Shown here piece after piece: positions 1-21,691 of a stretch of DNA of 23,278 bases (position 1 is its first letter; each line of letters begins with the position of its first letter). The stretch is from a virus: the IMG/VR virus record IMGVR_UViG_3300023220_000276, positions 1 through 23,278 of that record; one strand, 5' to 3'. Both the position numbers and the translations under genes were made by a program. A model generated the notes under the pieces. That model saw only the letters and a program-made list of their open reading frames with translations, did not search any database and was not told the DNA's origin.

Positions 1-255
1 TCCACTGCTAGCGAGCTGGGCATACTCTCCACTGCTAGCGAGCTGGGCATACTCTCCACTGCTAGCGAGCTGGGCATAGTATCCACTGCTAGCGAGCTGG
101 GCATACTCTCCACTGCTAGCGAGCTGGGCATACTCTCCACTGCTAGCGAGCTGGGCATAGTATCCACTGCTAGCGAGCTTGGCAGAGTCTCCACTGCTAG
201 CGAGCTGGGCATACTCTCCACTGCTAGCGAGCTGGGCATACTCTCCACTGCTAGC
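1..255 (-). repeat. 27-bp tandem repeat array inside the DUF7666-like gene
   Basis: Nine complete 27-bp units fill 1-243 and a partial unit follows to 255; the array continues off the left edge. Each unit is nine codons, so copy-number changes keep the reading frame. Units differ only in the last bases: six encode E-Y-A-Q, two encode Y-Y-A-Q (55-81, 136-162) and one encodes D-S-A-K (163-189). An 81-bp higher-order unit is visible, since 1-81 and 82-162 are identical. Near-perfect identity at synonymous sites points to recent expansion. There are no unique spacers, so it is not a CRISPR array. Confidence 0.95.
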
Positions 256-588
256 GTCATCGCTTTTACAGTTAGCTATAACCCAATCGACAGCCTTCTC
301 GATGAATTCAGGTAGCTTCAACTCTGCTTTGATAGTTATCTCAGCGCACACTGTTTTATTTTTATCGGATTTATTCAGATCACCACTAACAGACTCAACC
401 ATACAAAATCGAGAGTCAATAAGGTTGTAATAATCAAGACAATCAAGCGGGTTTACACACATATGGAATCCGTTCCCGCATAGCTTTACATCCCCTTCCG
501 TTTTGTAAGTACTACCGGTTTCATACTGGAAACCACGGCACTTAAGATCTTTATTGAAAGCCTTGAACCCCGTTATTACTTTAGACAT
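1..588 (-). CDS. DUF7666-like protein with C-terminal nonapeptide repeats (3' end cut by window)
   Basis: The frame runs on the minus strand from ATG at 588 to the window edge, so at least 196 residues are present and the C terminus is missing. A good ribosome site (GAAGGGTG) lies just upstream. The first ~110 residues hold GFKAFNKDLKCRGFQY, then GFHMC, DYY and a SGDLNKSDKNKTVCAEI segment. From memory, this pattern matches the N-terminal domain now called DUF7666, found in phages and prophages, often ahead of A/G-rich repeats. The rest is tandem nonapeptides of the form EYAQLASSG, with variants YYAQLASSG and DSAKLASSG. Nine-residue periodicity with small residues would suit a beta-helix or fibre, but this is inference. 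The biochemical role is unknown. It is transcribed away from the replication operon, which suits an accessory gene. Confidence 0.75.
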   Translation of the reverse strand, partial: MSKVITGFKAFNKDLKCRGFQYETGSTYKTEGDVKLCGNGFHMCVNPLDCLDYYNLIDSRFCMVESVSGDLNKSDKNKTVCAEITIKAELKLPEFIEKAVDWVIANCKSDDASSGEYAQLASSGEYAQLASSGDSAKLASSGYYAQLASSGEYAQLASSGEYAQLASSGYYAQLASSGEYAQLASSGEYAQLASSG

Positions 589-804: not shown

Positions 805-957
805 CTATTTAGATCTTAGTGGGTTCCAAACCACCGCAACCAAAACAACAGCTAGGACAAGATCAACGGCAAAAGACAACAGATAAGAAGTAAAGTCTGT
901 TACCGCCAAAAGCATGGCCAGAACAATAACAATGGCTAATCTTCCATGGTTTTCCAT
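805..957 (-). CDS. Small membrane protein, 50 aa, coupled to TerB-like gene
   Basis: The frame starts at ATG 957-955, sharing one base with the TerB-like stop in a TAATG junction, and ends with TAG at 805. The product begins MENHGRLAIVIVLAMLLAV and continues through DLVLAVVLVAVVW to NPLRSK. It therefore has two hydrophobic stretches (about residues 6-20 and 32-46) separated by DFTSYLLSFA, with a basic C-terminal tail. This fits a two-helix inner-membrane hairpin. The stop-start overlap implies translational coupling to the TerB-like gene and perhaps a shared function. No family is recognised. Confidence 0.7.
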   Translation of the reverse strand: MENHGRLAIVIVLAMLLAVTDFTSYLLSFAVDLVLAVVLVAVVWNPLRSK

Positions 958-1403
958 TACGCGGCTTCTAAACCAAAGTCTTGCATCCGAAGGTTTAGCT
1001 CTTTGCCGACCTCCTTGAGAATAACGATTTCTTCTGGCTCAATCTCGCCGTCCGATTCAGCAATACCAATCATCGACACAAAGACTTCTTCTGCTTCGTC
1101 TCTGTTATCTTTGATGTCGCGGATTTCGCGCAATATTTTGGTTTTACCGAGGCGGAAATTTGCTTCAAGCATTTCAGTGAACCGATTAATAGTGACGGTG
1201 ATTTCACTGCCAAAGTGTTGTAGGCTTGGATTTGAGTTGAGTTGCTTCTCCAGGCTTTCAACTTCTTCAGGTTCAATTTCACCATCGGCTGCAGCAACTA
1301 AAAGACAGCCGCCGACGATAGCTTCCATTAAATCTCGGTTCTCAATCTTCTTCATTTCATTGAGAGCTGCGTTTTTCTTTTTACCAAATAATTTACCTAA
1401 CAT
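957..1403 (-). CDS. TerB-like protein (tellurite-resistance TerB family fold)
   Basis: This 148-residue acidic, helical protein starts at ATG 1403, after GGAGATAAACAA. It has the internal duplication typical of TerB: ADGEIEPEE at residues 39-47 and SDGEIEPEE at 117-125, which in TerB form acidic metal-binding loops. The family length is about 150, so it looks complete. TerB proteins are linked to tellurite resistance, phage inhibition and membrane-associated stress complexes. Here there is no TerC, D or Z neighbour, only a coupled membrane microprotein, so a solo accessory role is more likely than metal resistance. Assignment to the fold is firm; function is inferred. Confidence 0.85.
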   Translation of the reverse strand: MLGKLFGKKKNAALNEMKKIENRDLMEAIVGGCLLVAAADGEIEPEEVESLEKQLNSNPSLQHFGSEITVTINRFTEMLEANFRLGKTKILREIRDIKDNRDEAEEVFVSMIGIAESDGEIEPEEIVILKEVGKELNLRMQDFGLEAA

Positions 1404-1782: not shown

Positions 1783-2349
1783 ATGATGGCATCATTTGAT
1801 GTACCAGACTCAGAAAGGCACCTTTATTTTCTGTTAAACAATACTTTCCACTTATGCTCCCCACCATCAAGTTCAGGCTATAAGATTGCGGGGCTGTACT
1901 CTATTCACCATGAAGATAAGTGCCGCTATGTTGGGCAAAGTCAAAACCTTCCTAGTCGCTTAGCAAATCACCTATCAGGACACTACTCATATGCTGATGA
2001 GTTTAGGATTTACTTTATTGCGGGCTTTGAGGATTTCTATGATAGAGGAAAGGAATCTAGGAAGATTATTCTTGAAAATAATGAACTGCGCATAATCCAA
2101 GAATTAAAGCCTATCGATAACATAATCTCTAATTATGATCGAGAAATTCCAGAAGAAATGCTTTTCGATAGCTTGTGTGAAATTCAGAGTGGCTACCAAA
2201 TCCATGACTTATCAGGCTTTAAATCTAAGCACTATATAACAATTGTTGAGTGCGTGTATCAGTCAATGGACGATATTGACAATAGAATTATGTCTCCCTA
2301 TATAGAAGAAATGGACAGGATAAGGAGACTTCTCGATGCCAAGATCTAG
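1783..2349 (+). CDS. GIY-YIG family nuclease
   Basis: The 188-residue product starts at ATG 1783, two bases after the regulator stop, with GGTGAG upstream. The GIY-YIG core is GLY at 37-39 and YVGQS at 49-53, followed by arginine 59 and histidine 63. The metal-binding glutamate is probably E101 in NNELRIIQELKP, with an asparagine at 113. All key residues seem present, so it should be active. Such nucleases act as homing endonucleases, restriction enzymes or repair nucleases. No extra DNA-binding domain is recognised in the last ~70 residues. Its end overlaps the replication gene by 14 bases, so it is firmly part of the early operon. Confidence 0.8.
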   Translation: MMASFDVPDSERHLYFLLNNTFHLCSPPSSSGYKIAGLYSIHHEDKCRYVGQSQNLPSRLANHLSGHYSYADEFRIYFIAGFEDFYDRGKESRKIILENNELRIIQELKPIDNIISNYDREIPEEMLFDSLCEIQSGYQIHDLSGFKSKHYITIVECVYQSMDDIDNRIMSPYIEEMDRIRRLLDAKI

Positions 2350-4438: not shown

Positions 4439-4635
4439 TGAGCAGAAACAAGTTTTTTAAATATTACTGTATTCCACTAATGGTGCTTAGCCAGTTAGGT
4501 ATGCCGGGTTTTTTAATATATTACCACTATGTTGAGTTTAACGCATACTTGTTGTTTTCAGCGCCAATATTCTATTTGCTTGGTTTTATTCCATGGGTGA
4601 TAGTCGACGTGTTTGATTTGTTGGAGTGGGAATAA
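4438..4635 (+). CDS. Small membrane protein, 65 aa
   Basis: ATG 4438 overlaps the Lar-like stop by one base. The product has a basic start (MSRNKFFKYY), a first hydrophobic segment at about 11-28 and a second at about 36-58 (LLFSAPIFYLLGFIPWVIV), then an acidic end. This predicts a two-helix inner-membrane protein with both ends on the same side. No family is recognised; superinfection or host-takeover roles are typical of such phage peptides but cannot be shown here. Confidence 0.6.
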   Translation: MSRNKFFKYYCIPLMVLSQLGMPGFLIYYHYVEFNAYLLFSAPIFYLLGFIPWVIVDVFDLLEWE

Positions 4636-4637
4636 TT

Positions 4638-4877
4638 ATGCCTAACTACACTTGCACAGTGACCATCGGTACGCATAGCGAGGTCTGCGTTGACTTCAAC
4701 TACGAGCCTTCCGATCCAGAATGCGGTCTAGGCGCAGAGATAGAAATAAATACTATTGGGTTTATGAATTTAAATTCCATCGATTGCATCATGCGTGATC
4801 TAAGCTTTGATTGTGTCGAACGAATAAGAGTTGAATGTTTTAAATATGTAGAGGTACAACGTGGTAACAGATTATGA
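4638..4877 (+). CDS. Hypothetical phage protein, 79 aa
   Basis: ATG 4638 is preferred over the in-frame GTG at 4626, because GGAGTGGGAATAATT gives it a well-spaced ribosome site. The product begins MPNYTCTVTIGTHSEVCVDF and is rich in beta-strand residues, with cysteines at several positions and VERIRVECFKYVEVQRG at the end. No domain is recognised. It lies three bases after the membrane protein gene in the same operon. Confidence 0.6.
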   Translation: MPNYTCTVTIGTHSEVCVDFNYEPSDPECGLGAEIEINTIGFMNLNSIDCIMRDLSFDCVERIRVECFKYVEVQRGNRL

Positions 4878-4933
4878 CGATTTAGAAGATAACTTTTTTG
4901 AAAACTATTACGGTCAAAATTGGAGTAAGCAAG

Positions 4934-5167
4934 ATGAGCGCAGGAACAGCAATAGCAACGGACCACTTCGAGTCGAAGTATCACGCGATTCAATTTCAGA
5001 GAGCAAAGAGGAAGGCATTCAGGGCTCTAGTGAAGCGCACGAACCGGGAGCTGCAGATCGGCAAGCCTGAGGCGCATTACCCTTGTGTTGCAGAACCAGA
5101 CGAAGACGGTAGATACTGGATCAAGCACATTGATGATGTAGCAAAGAAAATAAATATGTGGGCCTAG
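4934..5167 (+). CDS. Hypothetical phage protein, 77 aa
   Basis: ATG 4934 has GGAG nine bases upstream and gives MSAGTAIATDHFESKYHAIQ as the N terminus. A longer in-frame start at 4898 lacks a ribosome site. The product is basic in the middle (QRAKRKAFRALVKRTNRE) and ends in IDDVAKKINMWA, so nucleic-acid binding is possible. A second open frame with its own GTG start (4861-5070) overlaps most of it; this frame looks more protein-like. Confidence 0.55.
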   Translation: MSAGTAIATDHFESKYHAIQFQRAKRKAFRALVKRTNRELQIGKPEAHYPCVAEPDEDGRYWIKHIDDVAKKINMWA

Positions 5168-5169
5168 TT

Positions 5170-5352
5170 ATGCAAACACAACTAGCAAGATTCGAAGGCG
5201 TTGGTGATCTCGAAGGCTACAGAAAGAAATTTTACAAGGACGATTCTGGTCAGATAATTAGAGAGACCAAAGGTAAAAATATATACACAGCTTCGAAGGT
5301 CGACAAGGTGCCTTCGATGATAAAAGGGTTTACAGAGGTGGGATTAAAATGA
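5170..5352 (+). CDS. Hypothetical phage protein, 60 aa
   Basis: ATG 5170 follows the preceding stop by two bases; GTG 5158 is an alternative that would overlap it. The ribosome site is weak, so translational coupling is likely. The product contains FEGVGDLEGYRKKFYKDDSG, then KNIYTASKVDKVPSMIKGF. It is soluble and basic with no recognised domain. It ends in an ATGA overlap with the next microprotein. Confidence 0.5.
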   Translation: MQTQLARFEGVGDLEGYRKKFYKDDSGQIIRETKGKNIYTASKVDKVPSMIKGFTEVGLK

Positions 5353-5447
5353 AATGGCTAGATAGGTTTTGTTTAATTGAGTTTTGTTTAATTTCTTACG
5401 CCTTTGGAATTATCACAGCGTTGCGTTGCTTTGTTTCGTTTGGATAG
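5349..5447 (+). CDS. Membrane microprotein, 32 aa
   Basis: ATG 5349 overlaps the previous stop as ATGA, and GAGGT lies nine bases upstream. The product reads MKWLDRFCLIEFCLISYAFG, then IITALRCFVSFG and a stop at 5447. Basic residues come first, then one long hydrophobic stretch (about 8-25), fitting a single-pass membrane peptide. A small DNA repeat (TTTTGTTTAATT twice) lies inside. Coding status rests on the ribosome site, coupling and hydrophobicity. Confidence 0.45.
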   Translation: MKWLDRFCLIEFCLISYAFGIITALRCFVSFG

Positions 5448-5465
5448 CACCGGGAGTATTTATTA

Positions 5466-5999
5466 ATGGATAGTCTAAAACAGAAAGCCAGAGATTTCCT
5501 TGCTGGTAATGAAGCGCCAGAATGGGCTACGCATGTTGCTGTTTATATGCCTAAAAGTTTCGCTGTAGCTGAGTATTGTCTTTTCCAGTGTGGAGAGTTC
5601 AGGACTGGACCCGATGCTTCGGTTTTCTTCAATGATGAGAATGAGTTTTTCTCCATAGCAGAACTAACAGAGCAGGGCGGACTAGCTTGCAATAAAGATT
5701 GCGGCATGACGTTTAACGACGGCACCAGATACTATGAGCGAATCCACAAGACAGATTGTGCAATGTATCGGGGCAAACTTGAAGAGGTCATCCCTGTAGA
5801 TCGTCGAGAGATCCTCACACTAGAACAAAAACTAAATAAACTCTGCACAGAGTACAGCGTCTGGTTGCGCAGTGATGAGCCTAAAAAACTGAACCTAGAA
5901 AGATCGCTAAAGAAGTTTGAGATTGCCGACGCTGCAATGCGAATGTATTTCGAAGGCTACGATGAACTTATTGAATTATTGGAGGGTGAAAATGATTAG
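5466..5999 (+). CDS. Hypothetical phage protein, 177 aa
   Basis: Start is ATG 5466, nine bases after GGGAG. The N-terminal half (residues 1-105) is mixed alpha/beta with PEWATHVAVYMPKSFAVAEY and two cysteine pairs (C43; C75, C79, and C98). The C-terminal half (about 118-177) is strongly helical and charged, probably coiled coil, ending IELLEGEND. Sequences like 'P.WATH.A.........' recur in early phage proteins near resolvases, but I know no function. It overlaps the next microprotein by eight bases. Confidence 0.65.
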   Translation: MDSLKQKARDFLAGNEAPEWATHVAVYMPKSFAVAEYCLFQCGEFRTGPDASVFFNDENEFFSIAELTEQGGLACNKDCGMTFNDGTRYYERIHKTDCAMYRGKLEEVIPVDRREILTLEQKLNKLCTEYSVWLRSDEPKKLNLERSLKKFEIADAAMRMYFEGYDELIELLEGEND

Positions 6000-10902: not shown

Positions 10903-11315
10903 TGGCCCAGGATCTTGGATTAGATTTTGCAGCAGGACCAACGGTCACCTTGCTTTCGTCGGATTTAACTGACGGCAGCCAGTCAGCGTTTACCGCCACA
11001 GTAGATTTTGGAAACCCAGCCCCTATCGCATTTGGTCATGAACTTATCCTTACAACTCTAACCGGCACAACTGGCCCGGTGACGCTGCAAGTTGCTTGGT
11101 CGCATGATAATTCGGATTTCTCCGACGCCAACAATGTGCAAAATGTTGTTACAGCTACGATGGCGGCGTCTACTGACAATGAGGCGGTCGGGTCTTCGGC
11201 TGTGATGGCCCAGTATGCCAAGTTTAGGCTCGACAACCAGAGCGGCGGAACTGTTGACGGTACGTCGTCTAACACGGCTCTTATACTCACCGATATATTT
11301 GGCGACCAAAGCTAA
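10902..11315 (+). CDS. Probable virion protein, beta-rich, 137 aa
   Basis: ATG 10902 overlaps the previous stop. The product is Thr/Ser/Ala/Val rich with alternating strands (LILTTLTGTTGPVTLQVAWS, later YAKFRLDNQSGG and TALILTDIFG). This composition suits a beta-sandwich virion protein, for example a fibre or decoration subunit. No family is certain. Its stop also overlaps the next ATG, keeping 1:1 translation with the LamG-like protein possible. Confidence 0.55.
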   Translation: MAQDLGLDFAAGPTVTLLSSDLTDGSQSAFTATVDFGNPAPIAFGHELILTTLTGTTGPVTLQVAWSHDNSDFSDANNVQNVVTATMAASTDNEAVGSSAVMAQYAKFRLDNQSGGTVDGTSSNTALILTDIFGDQS

Positions 11316-12184
11316 TGTTTTTGCACCCCTTTGCAAGACATCTCGACCCTGGGTTTGCTGACCCAACGAAGAATCCTTTAGACTCCCTGTCTTTAGAGAT
11401 AAGGTGGGAAGATTCGATAACTAAGGATTTGCATAGCGCATACGTGCTAGATACATTCTCAGTTCGGGATATAACGGGGAGAGTCCCACAGTCTGCTATT
11501 GCCGTTAATGGCTCTCAAATAGCGCTAGAATCCCGCCCCGTTTCTAAGGCGCTAACATGGGATGGCAGCGACAACAACCAAGTCAATCTTGACATTGTCG
11601 GTCAGCCTTACGATTTCCACACGTCATCGACAATGTCGTATTCTATTCTCCACTATTTTACCTTTGAGGGGGATACTAATAGCAGCGCCGAAGATACCTT
11701 GTCTGCTTCAACTACCATAGCTGTGTTTGACTTATTATCGGTCGCTGTGTCTATTGAGGACGGCCTACCACATTGCCTATTAGTGACTAGAGATGAGTCG
11801 TTTTATAGAGCTTATCTAGATGGCGTTCAGATTGACGCAACCATTTCTACGTCAGGTCGAGGAAATTCCCATTTATTGCGGTATCAGTCAAATATTAACA
11901 GTTTAGAGTTGTTTACTGGAGCAACAGCGACGAGCACTTACGAGATCGGAGGCACTCCGCAAGCTGGCAATGATCGATGGGCTGGCCCGATATACACTAG
12001 TCAATTTTGGCAACGGGCATTAAGCCCTACTGAGGCTAGGTTCATAACAAGAAACCCTTGGTCTGTGTACAAGAATAGGCTGCCAATACCTTACTTCACT
12101 CCTGCGGGAGTGCCAGGCATTACCCCACAAATAGTTGTTCCTAATGCACAAAGAATAGTCAGACATTCAGGGCGTTACTTTTGA
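11315..12184 (+). CDS. LamG/concanavalin A-like lectin-fold protein, likely receptor-binding or fibre protein
   Basis: The 289-residue product starts at ATG 11315. Residues ~80-255 follow the LamG order: LTWDGSDNNQVNL, a run of strands, YRAYLDGVQIDA (164-175), then GNDRWAGPIYTSQFWQRALS (218-237) with SPTEARF and NPWSVYK. The 'W.RALS..E' strand followed by 'NPW.....' is typical of phage LamG repeats that bind host glycans or proteins. Residues 1-75 may attach it to the virion. The C terminus (ITPQIVVPNAQRIVRHSGRYF) is short. It very likely contributes to host recognition. Confidence 0.7.
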   Translation: MFLHPFARHLDPGFADPTKNPLDSLSLEIRWEDSITKDLHSAYVLDTFSVRDITGRVPQSAIAVNGSQIALESRPVSKALTWDGSDNNQVNLDIVGQPYDFHTSSTMSYSILHYFTFEGDTNSSAEDTLSASTTIAVFDLLSVAVSIEDGLPHCLLVTRDESFYRAYLDGVQIDATISTSGRGNSHLLRYQSNINSLELFTGATATSTYEIGGTPQAGNDRWAGPIYTSQFWQRALSPTEARFITRNPWSVYKNRLPIPYFTPAGVPGITPQIVVPNAQRIVRHSGRYF

Positions 12185-12630
12185 CATACGCACGCATCGG
12201 CAGCATACAAAAAGTTGGTTGTGAAAATCTTTTAGAAATATTTAAAGGATTGGAGTACAAAGAATCAAAAGGCCCTGGCGTTCATTACAGGACTATTCAA
12301 AACGTTGTTAGCTCTATAGTTGACGTAAAGGCTTTGCATGTTATTTGGCCAACGGATGCTTGGCATAACGCCATGTTTATCTGCATTCCACCGAAAGGCA
12401 AGATACCATTGCACACCGAAAGCATTGGCATCAGTGAGGGCGACAAAGGGCCTTGGAAGAAATACCATATTCCCCTACAAACCTCTGATAAAGCGATTAG
12501 TTACATAGGTGCAGAGCAGCATAACTTGGAAGTCGGTAGTGTTTATGAGATAGACTTTAAAAAAGCACACGAATCAGTCAACAATGGCAGCGAAGACCGA
12601 GTTCACTTGGTCATGGAAATATATGAGTGA
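12181..12630 (+). CDS. 2-oxoglutarate/Fe(II) oxygenase, aspartyl/asparaginyl beta-hydroxylase type
   Basis: The frame begins with TTG 12181 overlapping the LamG stop (TTGA); no later start keeps the domain. In the 149-residue product, PLHTE (76-80), KKYHIPL (93-99), VGSVYEIDF (118-126), KAHESVNN (128-135) and EDRVHLVMEI (138-147) align in order with the catalytic core of human AspH. H78 and H130 should bind iron and R140 the 2-oxoglutarate carboxylate. This family hydroxylates Asp/Asn or free amino acids. It is unusual in a tail cluster; a virion-protein substrate is an attractive inference. All catalytic residues seem intact. Confidence 0.78.
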   Translation: MTYARIGSIQKVGCENLLEIFKGLEYKESKGPGVHYRTIQNVVSSIVDVKALHVIWPTDAWHNAMFICIPPKGKIPLHTESIGISEGDKGPWKKYHIPLQTSDKAISYIGAEQHNLEVGSVYEIDFKKAHESVNNGSEDRVHLVMEIYE

Positions 12631-12940
12631 TCGAATAGAAATCGATTTAAAATCAGGGCTCTTTACAGATTACGCCCATCAGATTAGAGTAAGGGCGGAA
12701 TTTGATCACGTTCTTATGTTGATAAGACGCAAAGTGGTTAAAATGAGAACAACGGCAGCTCATAAAGCGGGCTTCGCGTTGGCAAAAAAGGCCGGTGAAG
12801 CATTACCGGGGGAATTTGTTATAATGAATATCAATGGTGAAGCCTTCGAACTCCCACCAGAGTCAGCATTAAATCTAGGGGGCGCGTTGTTACGCAAAGC
12901 CGACGATGTGGACGATTATCAACTGAGGAAAAGCACATGA
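12623..12940 (+). CDS. Hypothetical phage protein, 105 aa
   Basis: ATG 12623 overlaps the oxygenase stop by eight bases; longer in-frame starts would run inside that gene. The product begins MSDRIEIDLKSGLFTDYAHQ, has a helical middle (VVKMRTTAAHKAGFALAKKA) and a strand-rich region with FVIMNINGEAFELPPESALN. No family is recognised. The tight coupling on both sides suggests it acts in the same virion or modification process. Confidence 0.55.
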   Translation: MSDRIEIDLKSGLFTDYAHQIRVRAEFDHVLMLIRRKVVKMRTTAAHKAGFALAKKAGEALPGEFVIMNINGEAFELPPESALNLGGALLRKADDVDDYQLRKST

Positions 12941-13398
12941 TAGGTCGATTGTATACGGTAGCGATTGCTAGCCAGGCACAAACAGCATCAAAAACACTGA
13001 TTGAAGTGGCAAGCGCTGCCGATTCAGTAACTTTGGTTGAGCGAATCTGGATAACCCAGACATCCTTTGATACGTCTGAAAATCTAGGCTCTACAACCCA
13101 AAGAATCACAACCACCGGTACCGGCACTGCAACCACGCCAGAGCCCTTACAGGTAGGTGATTCGGCCTTTGGTGGTGTTGTAGAGACAAACGCTACCATT
13201 GAGCCCTCATATACCGCAGGTACAGAGATATTGCAGCTTGGCTTTAATGTGCTGTCAGGTTTGCTCTGGACTCCCGCGAATGATGACGAAATTATTACTG
13301 TTTCGCCTTCTGCATTGGTCGGGATTAACCTCGATGTGGCTCCAAGCGCCAGCATGAACTTCAGTTATGGCTGTACGATTCGCGAAATAGGCGGTTAA
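12937..13398 (+). CDS. Probable virion protein, beta-rich, 153 aa
   Basis: ATG 12937 overlaps the preceding stop as ATGA. The product is Thr/Ser/Ile rich with strand alternation (VTLVERIWITQTS, ITTTGTGTATTPEPLQVGDS, MNFSYGCTIREIGG). It resembles small phage structural proteins with an 'ERI.I.QTS' and 'TP.PL..GD.A' pattern, in which the second half is an oligomerising beta-sandwich. The assignment to virion is by composition and position only. Confidence 0.55.
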   Translation: MIGRLYTVAIASQAQTASKTLIEVASAADSVTLVERIWITQTSFDTSENLGSTTQRITTTGTGTATTPEPLQVGDSAFGGVVETNATIEPSYTAGTEILQLGFNVLSGLLWTPANDDEIITVSPSALVGINLDVAPSASMNFSYGCTIREIGG

Positions 13399-13432: not shown

Positions 13433-14599
13433 GTGTCAAGTCCGCAATTTGTCGTTTATGAGGTAGCATCCCGGCGACTTCAAAAAGTTGTGGCCATCCC
13501 ATGGGCGGAACCCGCGCCAGCCGTTGCGGTTCCATACCCTAGCTTCTTAGCACCAAAACTTCTTAAACAAAAGCCTCTTAACCGAAAGCTGCTGACACCA
13601 CCAGCAAACGATGAATTTCCGGTAACACCACTGGAGGCATCGACATTTCTGCCGGCATGGGTAGCCAGGAAAACTAACAAATCAAAATTTGATCGGACCA
13701 GGCTAGATCCTCAAGAGCTCAATACCTATCCAGAAACACCACTAGAGGCGGCAACGTTTTTGCCTGCGTGGGTTGCAAAAGATGCCAACAAATCAAGCTT
13801 TGACCGAACTCGATTAGATCCTGAAGAACTTAACGTTTACCCTGAAACGCCCCCAGAAGCAGCGACGTTTTACCCAGGATGGCAAGCCAAGGCATCCAAC
13901 AAGAGCCAATTCGAGCGGCATTTACAGATTGTCCCAGAATTGGACGAATATCCAACCGCAGCGGCACCAGATCAGCCATTAACGGCCTTTCTGTTACCAG
14001 ATCAATTCAAGCAGCAACAACGTCGTAAACTGCAGATTATCCCGGAAATAGATACCTATCCGCCGCCGATAGTCCCAGAGCAGCCACCAACAGCATTCCT
14101 TGCGCCAAGAAAGTTCGTTCAGAGGCACGCTAGAGCGCTTCTTAAGCCGCTTGAGATTGATACCTACCCAATGACTCCGGTGGTACCGGAACAGCCGCCT
14201 ACAGCGTTTCTAGCTCCAAGAAAGTTCACACAGCGCCATATTCGCCAGTTGTTAAAGCCTGAAATACTGAGCTTTTACAGCCCACCAGTGCAGGACGAGC
14301 AACCTCCGACTGCATTCTTGGCGCCCAAGAAATTCACGCAGAGGCTAAAAAGAACACTATTAGTCCCCGAGAGACTAGATCAATTCAGGCCAACGCCCGA
14401 TCCTGCTAAGACTTTTGGAGTCGTTAGCCTGATCGATGCCTCTGGCCAGGGCCTCAGTTCGGCGATAGATGTCACTGGTCAAGGAGTAACCTCGTTGATA
14501 ACCCCTAGTTTGGGTGTGCTATCATTGATTGATGATAGTGGACAGGGATTGAAATCCTTAATTGATGAAGATGGTAGTGGTGTGGAGAGTGATATATGA
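13433..14599 (+). CDS. Modular proline-rich repeat protein, 388 aa, putative virion protein
   Basis: Start is GTG 13433. After a 33-residue head, residues 34-318 are eight units of mostly 36-37 residues (the first shorter). Early units read P-E-T-P-L-E-A-A-T-F-L-P and end LDPEELNVY; later ones read PEQPPTAFLAPRKFTQR and end EIDTY. Each thus has a Pro-rich start, an aromatic/Pro turn, a basic helix and an acidic-Tyr end. Residues 328-388 contain four degenerate copies of SLIDxSGQGL. I recognise no family. Alternating Pro-rich and basic segments could bind a rod, tail tube or DNA. The position among fibre genes suggests a structural protein. Confidence 0.7.
   Translation: MSSPQFVVYEVASRRLQKVVAIPWAEPAPAVAVPYPSFLAPKLLKQKPLNRKLLTPPANDEFPVTPLEASTFLPAWVARKTNKSKFDRTRLDPQELNTYPETPLEAATFLPAWVAKDANKSSFDRTRLDPEELNVYPETPPEAATFYPGWQAKASNKSQFERHLQIVPELDEYPTAAAPDQPLTAFLLPDQFKQQQRRKLQIIPEIDTYPPPIVPEQPPTAFLAPRKFVQRHARALLKPLEIDTYPMTPVVPEQPPTAFLAPRKFTQRHIRQLLKPEILSFYSPPVQDEQPPTAFLAPKKFTQRLKRTLLVPERLDQFRPTPDPAKTFGVVSLIDASGQGLSSAIDVTGQGVTSLITPSLGVLSLIDDSGQGLKSLIDEDGSGVESDI
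13532..14386 (+). repeat. Eight ~108-111 bp coding repeats in the repeat-protein gene
   Basis: Units at residues 34-62, 63-99, 100-136, 137-173, 174-209, 210-245, 246-282 and 283-318. Two subtypes are visible: A (units 2-4, with NKSxFDRTRLDP) and B (units 5-8, with TAFLAP and KFxQR). Neighbouring units are most alike, so expansion was local, but third-codon positions have diverged, unlike the 27-bp array at the left edge. Confidence 0.85.
14414..14587 (+). repeat. Short glycine-rich C-terminal repeats (SLIDxSGQGL)
   Basis: Four imperfect copies of a 10-13 residue motif (VVSLIDASGQGL, SAIDVTGQGV, VLSLIDDSGQGL, SLIDEDGSGV) end the repeat protein. The motif pairs a hydrophobic strand with a G-rich turn, typical of a trimerising or beta-solenoid tip. 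Confidence 0.7.
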
Positions 14600-15207
14600 C
14601 GATTAAATACGAGGTAGGTCAAAAATATCACAGGCTAACCATAGAAAGAATCTTCAAACAAGAAAACGTGCACGGAAGAATGGCTGCTTGCCTCTGTGAT
14701 TGCGGTATACAGAAAAACATAAGGCTTGGAAGTTTAGGTAATGGGCATTCTAAAAGTTGCGGTTGCAGTCGCAGAGAGATAAATAAAACTCACGGCATGA
14801 CTCACACTAGGGTTTATTCAATCTGGGAAGGGATGATTCAAAGGTGCACGAATAAAAAAAGCACAGGATATGATAATTATGGCGGCAGAGGAATAACTGT
14901 CTGCGAGGAATGGCGAGATTTCAATAATTTTTACGCGGACATGGGTTTGCCTCCCGATCGTAAGACTTTGGATAGGAAAAACAACGACATAGGATATTGT
15001 AAGGATAATTGCCGTTGGGCGACTTGGAAAGAGCAGCATTCAAACAAACGTATGAGAAAAGACAATCAAACTGGAGTCACTGGGCTTGAATACTGGGGGA
15101 ATAGATTTAGATGTAGAGTTAAAGGAAAGCATCTTGGCATCTTTGATACAATTGGTGATGCAATTTCAGCCATAGAATTAGCTAGGAAGGACCACAAGAA
15201 TGATTAA
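14596..15207 (+). CDS. Free-standing HNH homing endonuclease with AP2 DNA-binding domain
   Basis: ATG 14596 overlaps the repeat-protein stop as ATGA. The 203-residue product has an N-terminal zinc-knuckle region (CLCDCG at 32-37, KSCGCS at 53-58), HGMTHTRVYSIWEGMIQRC (66-84), YGGRGITVCEEW (95-106), the nuclease core KTLDRKNND...GYCKDNCRWAT (123-143), and a C-terminal AP2-like domain (159-200; TGVTGLEYWGNRFRCRV, HLGIFDT). This order is standard for phage AP2/HNH homing enzymes. They cut DNA lacking the gene and so spread into co-infecting phages. It ends overlapping the next start, so it was inserted without breaking translation coupling. Confidence 0.88.
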   Translation: MTIKYEVGQKYHRLTIERIFKQENVHGRMAACLCDCGIQKNIRLGSLGNGHSKSCGCSRREINKTHGMTHTRVYSIWEGMIQRCTNKKSTGYDNYGGRGITVCEEWRDFNNFYADMGLPPDRKTLDRKNNDIGYCKDNCRWATWKEQHSNKRMRKDNQTGVTGLEYWGNRFRCRVKGKHLGIFDTIGDAISAIELARKDHKND

Positions 15208-15600: not shown

Positions 15601-16164
15601 ATGACCAAGACAACGGCGAAGAAGTCGCCTAAAAAAGCAGCGAAAAAGAGCGAAGCGGGAAGGCCGACGAAATATAAAAAAATCTATGACGAACAAGCAT
15701 ATAAACTCACTTTATTAGGTGGTGTCGATTCCGAGCTGGCTGATTTCTTTAATGTAACTGAGTCAACTTTAAACAAATGGAAGATAGATCACCCATTATT
15801 TTCGGAGTCCATTAAGAATGGCAAGGATATTGCTAATGCAAATGTTGCTACTAGCATGTATCAAAAATCAATCGGTTACTCTCACCCAGAAGACAAAATA
15901 TTTAGTGGTGGCTATGATGAAAATGGCAAACCAAGAGATCCTTTAATAGTCGGAACAACCAAACACTACCCACCAGACACAATGGCCGCATCCCTATTTT
16001 TGAGAAACAGAAGCAGGGTGAAAGGGGCTATTGGTTTAAACTGGCAAGATAAGACCGAACAAGAAGTCACCAACACACATAAGCTAGCAAGTTTGTCAGA
16101 TGAAGATCTAGACCGGATGCTTCAACAGCGAGAGCGCGACCTTGAACAGAGCACAAAAGATTAA
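15601..16164 (+). CDS. Terminase small subunit
   Basis: ATG 15601 follows AGAGAGGCTATT. After a Lys/Ala-rich tail (residues 1-16), GRPTKYKKIYDEQAYKLTLL (21-40) and the helix-turn-helix GGVDSELADFFNVTESTLNKW (41-61) match phage small terminases that bind the packaging start site. KNGKDIANANVATSMYQKS (72-90) and GYSHPEDKI follow. The C terminus is acidic and helical, probably contacting the large subunit. It overlaps the large-subunit gene by 23 bases. The site it recognises is often within or near its own gene, but I see no repeat there that proves a pac site. Confidence 0.85.
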   Translation: MTKTTAKKSPKKAAKKSEAGRPTKYKKIYDEQAYKLTLLGGVDSELADFFNVTESTLNKWKIDHPLFSESIKNGKDIANANVATSMYQKSIGYSHPEDKIFSGGYDENGKPRDPLIVGTTKHYPPDTMAASLFLRNRSRVKGAIGLNWQDKTEQEVTNTHKLASLSDEDLDRMLQQRERDLEQSTKD

Positions 16165-17605
16165 GCGAGTAGAATTACTTGAGGAAAAAATAAGAAGAAA
16201 CAAGCTTTCTCAGGGCATTCGAACATATAACGGGTTTTATGATTGGCAGTTTGAGTTCAATGCCGATACGAAAACTAATACCGCGGCTATGCTTATGGCT
16301 GCCAACCAGGTCGGCAAGTCCCGTACTGGTTGCACTATTGACGCATTCCATCTCACTGGCGAATATCCTGAAGGCTGGCAAGGCCATGAATTCGAATCAC
16401 CCCCAATGTGTTGGCTTCTGGGATACTCTGGTGAAAAGACCAGAGATTTACTGCAGCTCAAACTATTTGGACGATTCACCGGTACCGGCTTTGAAGGTGG
16501 TTTAATCCAGGCTGACAAGATTGTCGATTGGCGTGGTATGTCTGGTACTGCTGGCGCCATGCGTGAAGTCAGGGTAAAGCATGTCAATGGTGTCGCTATC
16601 TGCCAATTTTGGAGCTACAACCAGGGCCAGCATGCTTTGATGGGTGATGTGGTTGACTGGTACCACATTGACGAGGAGCCCAGGGATCCAGAGATATACC
16701 CGCAGGTGCTTACTAGGACGATTAACGGTGATAGTGGGCAGGGCGGCAGAGGCATTCTAACCTTTACACCAGAGAACGGCAGGACGCAGCTTGTGTGCTC
16801 GTTTCTCGATGAGCCAGAGGAAGGCATGCATTGCCGCACTGCAACCTGGGACGATGCACCGCACATCACGGAACGCACTAAGAAAACCATTCTTGCCCAA
16901 TACCCTGATTACCAAAAAGATATGAGATCCAAAGGTGTGCCACTGATGGGCGCCGGTTTGATTTATGAGCATTCGGAAGAAAGCCTAACCTGTGAGCCAT
17001 TTGAAATTCCCGCGCATTGGTATTTAATTAACGGGATGGATTTTGGTTGGGATCATCCACAAGCGCACATTCAATTAGCTTGGGATATGGGCACCGACAC
17101 GTTCTATGTGATCCATGCTTGGAAAGAGAGGAAAAAACAACCTTTCGAGGCTTGGCATGTGGTTAAGCCCTGGGCAGAGGAAGTGCCAACGGCATGGCCT
17201 TCTGATGGATTACAGACTGAAAAAGGTTCTGCTAAGCAGCAAAAGGAATATTACGAGGAAGCCGGTTGGGAGATGATGGACGACCACGCCACTTGGGAAG
17301 AAGGCGGCAACGGTGTTGAAGCTGGGCTAATGGAGATCAATAATCTCATGAAAACGGGTCGTTTAAAGGTTTTCAGGCACTTAAAAGAGGTTTTCGAGGA
17401 GATAAGGCAGTATCATAGGCACAACAAGAAGGGCGAGGACGGCACAGTGAGAAGCGTGATTGTTAAGACTATGGACGATATACTTGACGCTATTCGCTAC
17501 GCTTACATGATGCGCCGGCACGCTATCCAGAAGAATGATATCGGTGTGGACTGGGAAGATGATGACCACGGCCACGGCGGCGACACTAACGCGATGGGGT
17601 ATTGA
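16142..17605 (+). CDS. Terminase large subunit (P22 gp2-like packaging ATPase-nuclease)
   Basis: No ATG fits the N terminus, so TTG 16142 is taken; this start is uncertain. The 487-residue product has Walker A AANQVGKSR (53-61), Walker B VDWYHIDEE with D177-E178, and motif III-like LTFTPENG (207-213). The RNase H-like nuclease begins at GMDFGWDHP (298-306, D300 catalytic) and ends with DDILDAIRYAYMMR near 450. The motor drives DNA into the prohead and cuts concatemers. Size and motifs fit P22-type headful packaging, though the packaging type cannot be proven here. Confidence 0.9.
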   Translation: MNRAQKIKRVELLEEKIRRNKLSQGIRTYNGFYDWQFEFNADTKTNTAAMLMAANQVGKSRTGCTIDAFHLTGEYPEGWQGHEFESPPMCWLLGYSGEKTRDLLQLKLFGRFTGTGFEGGLIQADKIVDWRGMSGTAGAMREVRVKHVNGVAICQFWSYNQGQHALMGDVVDWYHIDEEPRDPEIYPQVLTRTINGDSGQGGRGILTFTPENGRTQLVCSFLDEPEEGMHCRTATWDDAPHITERTKKTILAQYPDYQKDMRSKGVPLMGAGLIYEHSEESLTCEPFEIPAHWYLINGMDFGWDHPQAHIQLAWDMGTDTFYVIHAWKERKKQPFEAWHVVKPWAEEVPTAWPSDGLQTEKGSAKQQKEYYEEAGWEMMDDHATWEEGGNGVEAGLMEINNLMKTGRLKVFRHLKEVFEEIRQYHRHNKKGEDGTVRSVIVKTMDDILDAIRYAYMMRRHAIQKNDIGVDWEDDDHGHGGDTNAMGY

Positions 17606-20948: not shown

Positions 20949-21312
20949 TTATTACGTGATACAAGCCGAGACTGGTGAAGATTTAACCCTGCTAGTATGC
21001 AACATGATAAGCCAAGGCTGGCGGCCAATAGGCGGCATAGCTTGCATGGATCATGGCATGTCAGGACAGATCATGGTGACGCATGAGGAAGAACCAGATT
21101 TTATTACTGGAGAGCCTGTTGTGGCACTGCCTTTCGATGGTGGTCCTGATGAAGGCAAAACTATTTCTTTGCTCAGGCAACTGGAAACTAGATGTGTCTC
21201 TAGACACAACACCCTTACGGCTTACGGGAATAATGAGGGATCTAAAATGGTAAAAAGATGCCTTCTTGAACTGAGAAAAGTAATCGCGGAGATCGAAGAC
21301 AATGAAGATTAA
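20932..21312 (+). CDS. DUF1737-like phage protein, 126 aa
   Basis: ATG 20932 has GGAGGGTCCGAACG upstream and is preferred to an in-frame start 48 bases earlier. The first 40 residues (MRKIVDYYVIQAETGEDLTL, then VCNMISQGWRPIGGIACMD) match the small DUF1737 fold (YYVI...L...V...I..GW.P.GG). The remainder is helical and ends RKVIAEIEDNED. DUF1737 has no known function. It lies between portal and GroES-like genes and overlaps the latter by 11 bases. Confidence 0.65.
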   Translation: MRKIVDYYVIQAETGEDLTLLVCNMISQGWRPIGGIACMDHGMSGQIMVTHEEEPDFITGEPVVALPFDGGPDEGKTISLLRQLETRCVSRHNTLTAYGNNEGSKMVKRCLLELRKVIAEIEDNED

Positions 21313-21691
21313 ACCACTAGGGTTTTACGTACTAATCGAGATGGAAACGGTTGAGAAGGTTTCGGCGGGCGGTATCGTGTTGCCGGGTGATCTCATTGCT
21401 AAGGAGCAGGACGCTACCGATACGGGGTGGGTTCGTGCCATTGGGCCAACGGCTTATGTTGGGTACCCGGGGTGTGAAAGAGAAGGCGGCGAATTAAAAA
21501 ACATCGCCGAAAAAGGCAGCATTCAATTAGAAAAACAACCAGCACTATCACCAGCTGACTGCTGGGGCCTAGAAATTGGCCAGAAGATCGAATACCGCCG
21601 CTTCGAAGGCAAGAAGTCTTCAGAGCCAGGTTACGAGAATTACCGCTATATCCCAGATTCCCACATCATAGGAGCTATCGACGATGAGTAA
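21302..21691 (+). CDS. GroES/Cpn10-like co-chaperonin
   Basis: ATG 21302 overlaps the previous stop. The 129-residue product has MKIKPLGFYVLIEMETVEKV followed by SAGGIVLP (21-28), the Cpn10 mobile loop with the I-V-L tripeptide that binds GroEL. The later DTGWVRAIGP (40-49) and GLEIGQKIEYRRFEGK also fit the Cpn10 barrel. It is longer than GroES (97), with extra sequence at about 55-85 that could enlarge the dome. Phage T4 gp31 is a known functional analogue that helps fold the major capsid protein. Position just upstream of head genes suggests the same job. Confidence 0.85.
   Translation: MKIKPLGFYVLIEMETVEKVSAGGIVLPGDLIAKEQDATDTGWVRAIGPTAYVGYPGCEREGGELKNIAEKGSIQLEKQPALSPADCWGLEIGQKIEYRRFEGKKSSEPGYENYRYIPDSHIIGAIDDE

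Follow-up and report, generated by a model that had tools for sequence, protein, structure and literature searches.

Phage genes resembling AspH have already been published. One encodes a core protein of pelagimyophages annotated as asparaginyl beta-hydroxylase (PMC7029224), another so annotated is encoded by the cyanophages P-HM1 and P-HM2 (PMC3037559), and a third is ORF8 of Limnohabitans phage DC33 (PMC12195039). Such genes are usually listed as metabolic and are given no target. The closest small relative by structure, Cpz10, is the caprazamycin beta-hydroxylase (7v4f/7v4m), a protein of 168-182 amino acids with a small-molecule substrate (PMC9814697). Here we describe an AspH-like gene in a complete IMG/VR record, a linear virus contig of 23,278 bases from an uncultured tailed phage (hereafter the window). 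What is newer is the late-module clade to which the gene belongs and the swappable slot that it occupies. No description of this clade, of the coupling to an adhesin-like gene or of an alternative slot enzyme was found in the open-access literature searched; a limited search of that literature, with subscription journals mostly outside it, also gave no report of a tailed phage hydroxylating its own adhesins.

The features of the window and of the related contigs are presented in Table 1. A simple P22-like phage was considered for the window and dropped: the TerL resembles those of Pseudomonas podophages and the portal resembles the HTVC027P/QDWS535 types.

Table 1. Positions of the features discussed (in the window unless a contig is named)
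Feature	Position	Strand	Evidence or remark
27-bp tandem repeat	1-256		9.5 copies; contig starts inside it; probably an assembly break
TerB-like protein	957-1403	-	50 bits; left end
GIY-YIG domain protein	1783-2349		27 bits; left end
Adhesin-like protein	11315-12184	+	Weak LamG match, Laminin_G_3 below cut-off; overlaps AspH
Basic C-terminal segment AQRIVRHSGRYF of the adhesin-like protein	12146-12181	+	Common to otherwise unrelated adhesin-like proteins
Gene ends with the basic segment, related loci	L005 7247; L006 7703; L007 4867, 5918; L011 5600		
AspH-like Fe(II)/2OG oxygenase, 149 aa	12181-12630	+	PF05118 match, AlphaFold model, PDB matches 4p7w, 7v4m and human AspH
HXE iron-binding motif H78-T79-E80	12412-12420	+	Aligned with Cpz10 H115/D117
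H130 (iron), R140 (2OG), H142 (second shell)	12568-12606	+	Spacing +10/+12 as in Cpz10 H160/R170/H172
Cassette gene g12584	12584-12940	+	Possible start 12622; 34-64% identity across loci
Cassette gene g12937	12937-13398	+	Beta-rich, strongly conserved; 61-86% identity across loci
Proline-rich repeat protein	13433-14599	+	13.7% Pro; units of about 36 aa ending in [LI][DN]x[YF]PxTP
HNH endonuclease	14596-15207		phrog_374; between repeat protein and terminase genes
Terminase small and large subunits	15601-17605	+	PHROG 309 and 5653/2; just downstream (context)
GroES-like co-chaperonin	21302-21691		Cpn10, 31.8 bits (cut-off 21.1); between portal and contig end
Sulfotransfer_2, cysteine-rich and nearby sugar-biosynthesis genes (Polysacc_synt_2 dehydratase, DegT aminotransferase)	L103 5823-6326, 6999-7415, 10730-12168		Sulfotransfer_2 and cysteine-rich genes in the slot, the others nearby
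AspH, GNAT acetyltransferase, then ejection/virion structural proteins	L113 (PfAn1) 4627-5691; L047 7689-8713		Gene order
AspH domain behind an N6/N4 DNA methylase	L074 5604-8360		

The hydroxylase and its active site

The AspH gene of the window is genuine, and its TTG start is backed by homologues. The product is a short single-domain protein, i.e. a soluble bare domain, which matches PF05118 (Asp_Arg_Hydrox) at 38.9 bits (E 9.9e-10; cut-off 22.6); no match was found among the PHROG and NCBIfam families or the PADLOC defence/counter-defence models. Its AlphaFold model (ten sequences) is a double-stranded beta-helix with a pLDDT of 91.9 and a pTM of 0.87. Searched against the PDB with Foldseek, the model matches L-proline cis-4-hydroxylase best (4p7w, E 2.5e-8). 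Using VIA-align, the best structure is 7v4m (Cpz10; Z 14.4, rmsd 2.3, 132 aligned), and 5apa gives Z 12.6, rmsd 3.2 and 139 aligned.

Looking at the active site, the Fe(II)/2OG signature HX[DE]...H with an Arg at +10 is found as H78, E80, H130 and R140, and the profile alignment places H115, D117, H160, R170 and H172 of Cpz10 on H78, E80, H130, R140 and H142. The initial annotation had claimed a complete AspH-like core (H78, H130, R140) in a 2OG oxygenase; the core is present at exactly these positions, and the family score, the fold model and the catalytic residues bear out the identification. The window gene is predicted to encode a minimal Fe(II)/2-oxoglutarate hydroxylase with the PF05118 fold. 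H130, N134, R140 and H142 are invariant in all 67 non-redundant viral relatives, and H78 is kept in each of the 66 that cover its site. Since these residues do not vary among the 67 relatives, although the cassette AspHs described below share no more than 24-39% identity with the window AspH, catalysis is under selection.

The acidic iron ligand is D in 65 of the 66 viral relatives covering the site and E (E80) in the window alone; this is the only ground for questioning whether the window copy is fully active. E80 would weaken iron binding, and the gene is dispensable in three related contigs (L006, L093 and L103); both points would suit a non-catalytic accessory, either a decaying moron or a late protein with a structural or chaperone-like function. 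We consider such a role unlikely, because H78, H96, H130, N134, R140 and H142 are all intact in a complete frame and some 2OG oxygenases can be active with an HXE motif. Human AspH has no carboxylate ligand for the iron at all. Judging from its residues, the window AspH is presumably active despite E80.

The cassette, its slot and the late-module clade

The initial annotation placed the oxygenase between a LamG-like receptor gene and small virion genes, with a proline-rich repeat protein just downstream. The repeat protein is found there and the overlaps hold on both sides: 4 nt with the upstream gene and 47 nt with g12584 (about 9 nt if the latter starts at ATG 12622). However, the Laminin_G_3 match of the upstream gene (20.5 bits, E 5.5e-4) lies below the cut-off of 27.6, so that it is not assigned to the LamG/ConA-like lectins, and neither g12584 nor g12937 has a match in Pfam or PHROG (nor g12584 in NCBIfam); from their context, both would be virion genes. 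The AlphaFold model of g12937 is uninformative (pLDDT 45).

A scan with the window AspH as a single protein found no viral relatives. Twelve contigs were obtained with g12937 as bait, and two more, L093 and L103, came from scans with alignments of g12937 and g12584; after removal of the near-duplicates L008 and L010 and the truncated L013, the compared set consists of 12 contigs including the window, the cassette contigs being fragments. Nine of these 12 non-redundant g12937-type contigs carry a PF05118 gene in the same slot, so its presence in the window is not due to chance. The slot is bounded by g12584 on one side and, on the upstream side, by a gene that is adhesin-like in most cases; L011 carries two tandem AspH copies in it, and in L012 AspH and g12584 are separated by one small additional gene. 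Both boundaries are present in eight of the nine loci, and in each of these the first 4-19 nt of AspH overlap the end of the adhesin-like gene, stop codon included, which points to coupled translation of the two genes.

Homologues of the repeat protein are located downstream of g12937 in the other cassette loci. Whether the neighbours co-occur in other phages was a check proposed in the initial annotation, and the adhesin-like gene, g12584, g12937 and the repeat protein do recur together. Co-occurrence only with metabolic genes, named there as counter-evidence, is not seen: the cassette adjoins terminase and portal genes. The terminases that follow the cassette differ in type (the window TerL and portal have no tblastn match in the related loci, yet terminases are present in L003, L004, L006 and L007), and the conserved unit is therefore the cassette and not the phage backbone. 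No relatives of g12937 or of the L012 cassette AspH were found among annotated phages, and scans of genome contigs with alignments A2 and A5 gave no matches.

L006 and L093 contain the cassette (g12584, g12937 and the repeat protein) and no PF05118 gene anywhere in the contig; L103, also free of PF05118 genes, keeps g12584 and g12937. Two further genes of L103 stand among the adhesin-like genes just upstream of g12584, in the slot region: one for a Sulfotransfer_2 protein (25.3 bits against a cut-off of 22) and one for a cysteine-rich protein. A sulfotransferase-family gene at this place is as expected for interchangeable tailoring enzymes. The cassette as a whole could be a mobile adhesin unit whose slot receives alternative enzymes (AspH or sulfotransferase) for the modification of the phage's own receptor-binding proteins, a reading which we regard as rather doubtful.

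Based on an alignment scan of viral contigs, 70 loci contain relatives of AspH; in 11 of them the AspH is short and has terminase, portal or head-protein genes as neighbours, as checked by PHROG on representative hallmark genes. In a tree of 69 sequences (126 columns, with some long branches, that of the window among them), the 10 cassette AspHs group with these 11 late-module AspHs in a single clade of 21 members (support 97/98), within which the cassette AspHs are not monophyletic. A second group, consisting of PfAn1, L047 and L063 (97/91), is likewise located in late blocks. An acetyltransferase gene follows the AspH of PfAn1 and that of L047, and virion proteins come next. Among six cultured phages with a related TerL, only PfAn1 contains a PF05118 gene, which is located elsewhere in its genome.

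The longer AspH proteins of other phages form a separate clade (100/100). In L036, L039, L043, L069 and L074 the AspH domain has a further domain of roughly 200 aa on its N-terminal side; these proteins are possible DNA hypermodification enzymes. The L074 protein, in which AspH is fused to an N6/N4 DNA methylase, and the match of the double-stranded beta-helix fold to AlkB might place the window enzyme in a DNA or nucleotide modification pathway. This is highly improbable, given that the fused group belongs to the separate clade and that no recognised base-modification enzyme is found among the genes adjoining the window AspH.

Proposed role and candidate substrates

The enzyme probably tailors a late component of the phage or of the host surface. 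The reading that we favour, though tentatively, is a late tailoring hydroxylase which most likely modifies a virion adhesin encoded in the cassette, a host-surface or metabolite target being close behind. Late expression, a protein substrate and the choice of that protein are what we infer here. AspH would be a late product whose translation is coupled to that of the preceding adhesin-like gene, and it would hydroxylate a virion protein encoded in the cassette, on a side chain of the Asp, Asn, His or Pro class; the target would probably be the adhesin-like protein, hydroxylated before or during assembly.

Concerning the other cassette products, the repeat protein, g12584 and g12937 are candidate substrates only, and none shows an AspH-dependent residue. 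A search for such residues in g12584 and g12937 gave a single conservative Ile and nothing convincing. The end of the repeat unit is inviting for an Asp/Asn hydroxylase; its conserved [DN] position was tried as a substrate mark and is weakened as such, because it persists in contigs without AspH (N in four of four units in L006, and the same residues in L093).

The bodies of the adhesin-like proteins upstream of AspH are mutually unrelated across loci, and any target site shared by them would therefore lie in the basic C-terminal segment. Pairs of these proteins share their last 30-60 residues, ending in QRxxRHSGR-like segments (variants QRIVRHSGRYF, QRNVRHSGRF, QRNRRHIGR and QRNSRKSGRY); the ends of the L005 and L007 proteins are 67% identical over 30 aa (E 4e-10), with nothing shared upstream. 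The segment is also present in L006, which has no AspH, and is possibly a virion docking tag on exchangeable adhesins. A DNA scan for a C-terminal QRxxRHSGR[FY] returned six chance matches, none of them at a protein end and none accompanied by AspH or g12937.

The small size of the enzyme does not imply a protein substrate, because Cpz10, of similar size, acts on a small molecule. A host-directed late enzyme is a serious alternative, almost as likely as the favoured reading: it would hydroxylate a host metabolite, lipid (as for LpxO or OlsC) or surface precursor, for example altering the host envelope or blocking superinfection, and would merely share a late operon with virion genes. The nearest fold relatives, which include the free-amino-acid hydroxylases 4p7w and 1e5r as well as Cpz10, are consistent with such a role, as are the weak LpxO similarity of two homologues (26.7 bits in L007, 27.1 bits in L065) and the L103 slot, with its sulfotransferase-family gene and the sugar-biosynthesis genes nearby. 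However, these scores are far under the cut-off of the LpxO NCBIfam equivalog (500 bits), which the window enzyme, a bare soluble domain, does not match at all; a metabolic role would require neither the coupling to the adhesin-like gene nor the fixed place in the cassette, and no metabolic gene adjoins AspH within the window. As regards the favoured modification of adhesins, the clade is confined, over the 21 cases examined, to adhesin/packaging modules, with its cassette members coupled in translation to an adhesin-like gene. This gives a so far imprecise annotation a hypothesis that can be tested, namely that adhesins of some phages are hydroxylated by an enzyme of the phage itself. If true, this would be phage-encoded post-translational hydroxylation of virion adhesins.

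Comparison with known systems

Among the published phage enzymes, the tree covers that of DC33; this AspH is not a member of the late-module clade of 21, yet its gene also lies beside the terminase. The record of DC33 (L114, PQ492659) assigns it to Inoviridae, which looks wrong for a phage of 39 kb that encodes a terminase and a head-tail connector. The cultured Pseudomonas phage PfAn1 has a TerL 49% identical to that of the window. Its AspH (PV364321, 11626-12222; PF05118 63.7 bits) is in a late block, followed by the acetyltransferase and ejection proteins, but belongs to a different clade and has different neighbours from the window AspH.

The lipid A hydroxylase LpxO and OlsC belong to the same Pfam superfamily, with a weak match in some of the window homologues; compared with them, a hydrophobic membrane segment is not evident in the window sequence. 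L-proline cis-4-hydroxylase (4p7w) aligns in the catalytic core; its solved chain of 280 aa has a C-terminal region missing from the window AspH, and its substrate is a free amino acid. Cpz10 has a similar minimal size and its catalytic residues map onto the window enzyme, with D in Cpz10 where the window has E; unlike the role proposed here, it functions in an antibiotic pathway. Human AspH, the PF05118 Asp/Asn beta-hydroxylase, is also among the PDB structure matches. The window protein differs from it in lacking the TPR and membrane regions, and no EGF-domain substrate was recognised in the phage; the two share the fold and the H...H...R core, and 2OG chemistry is expected in the window protein.
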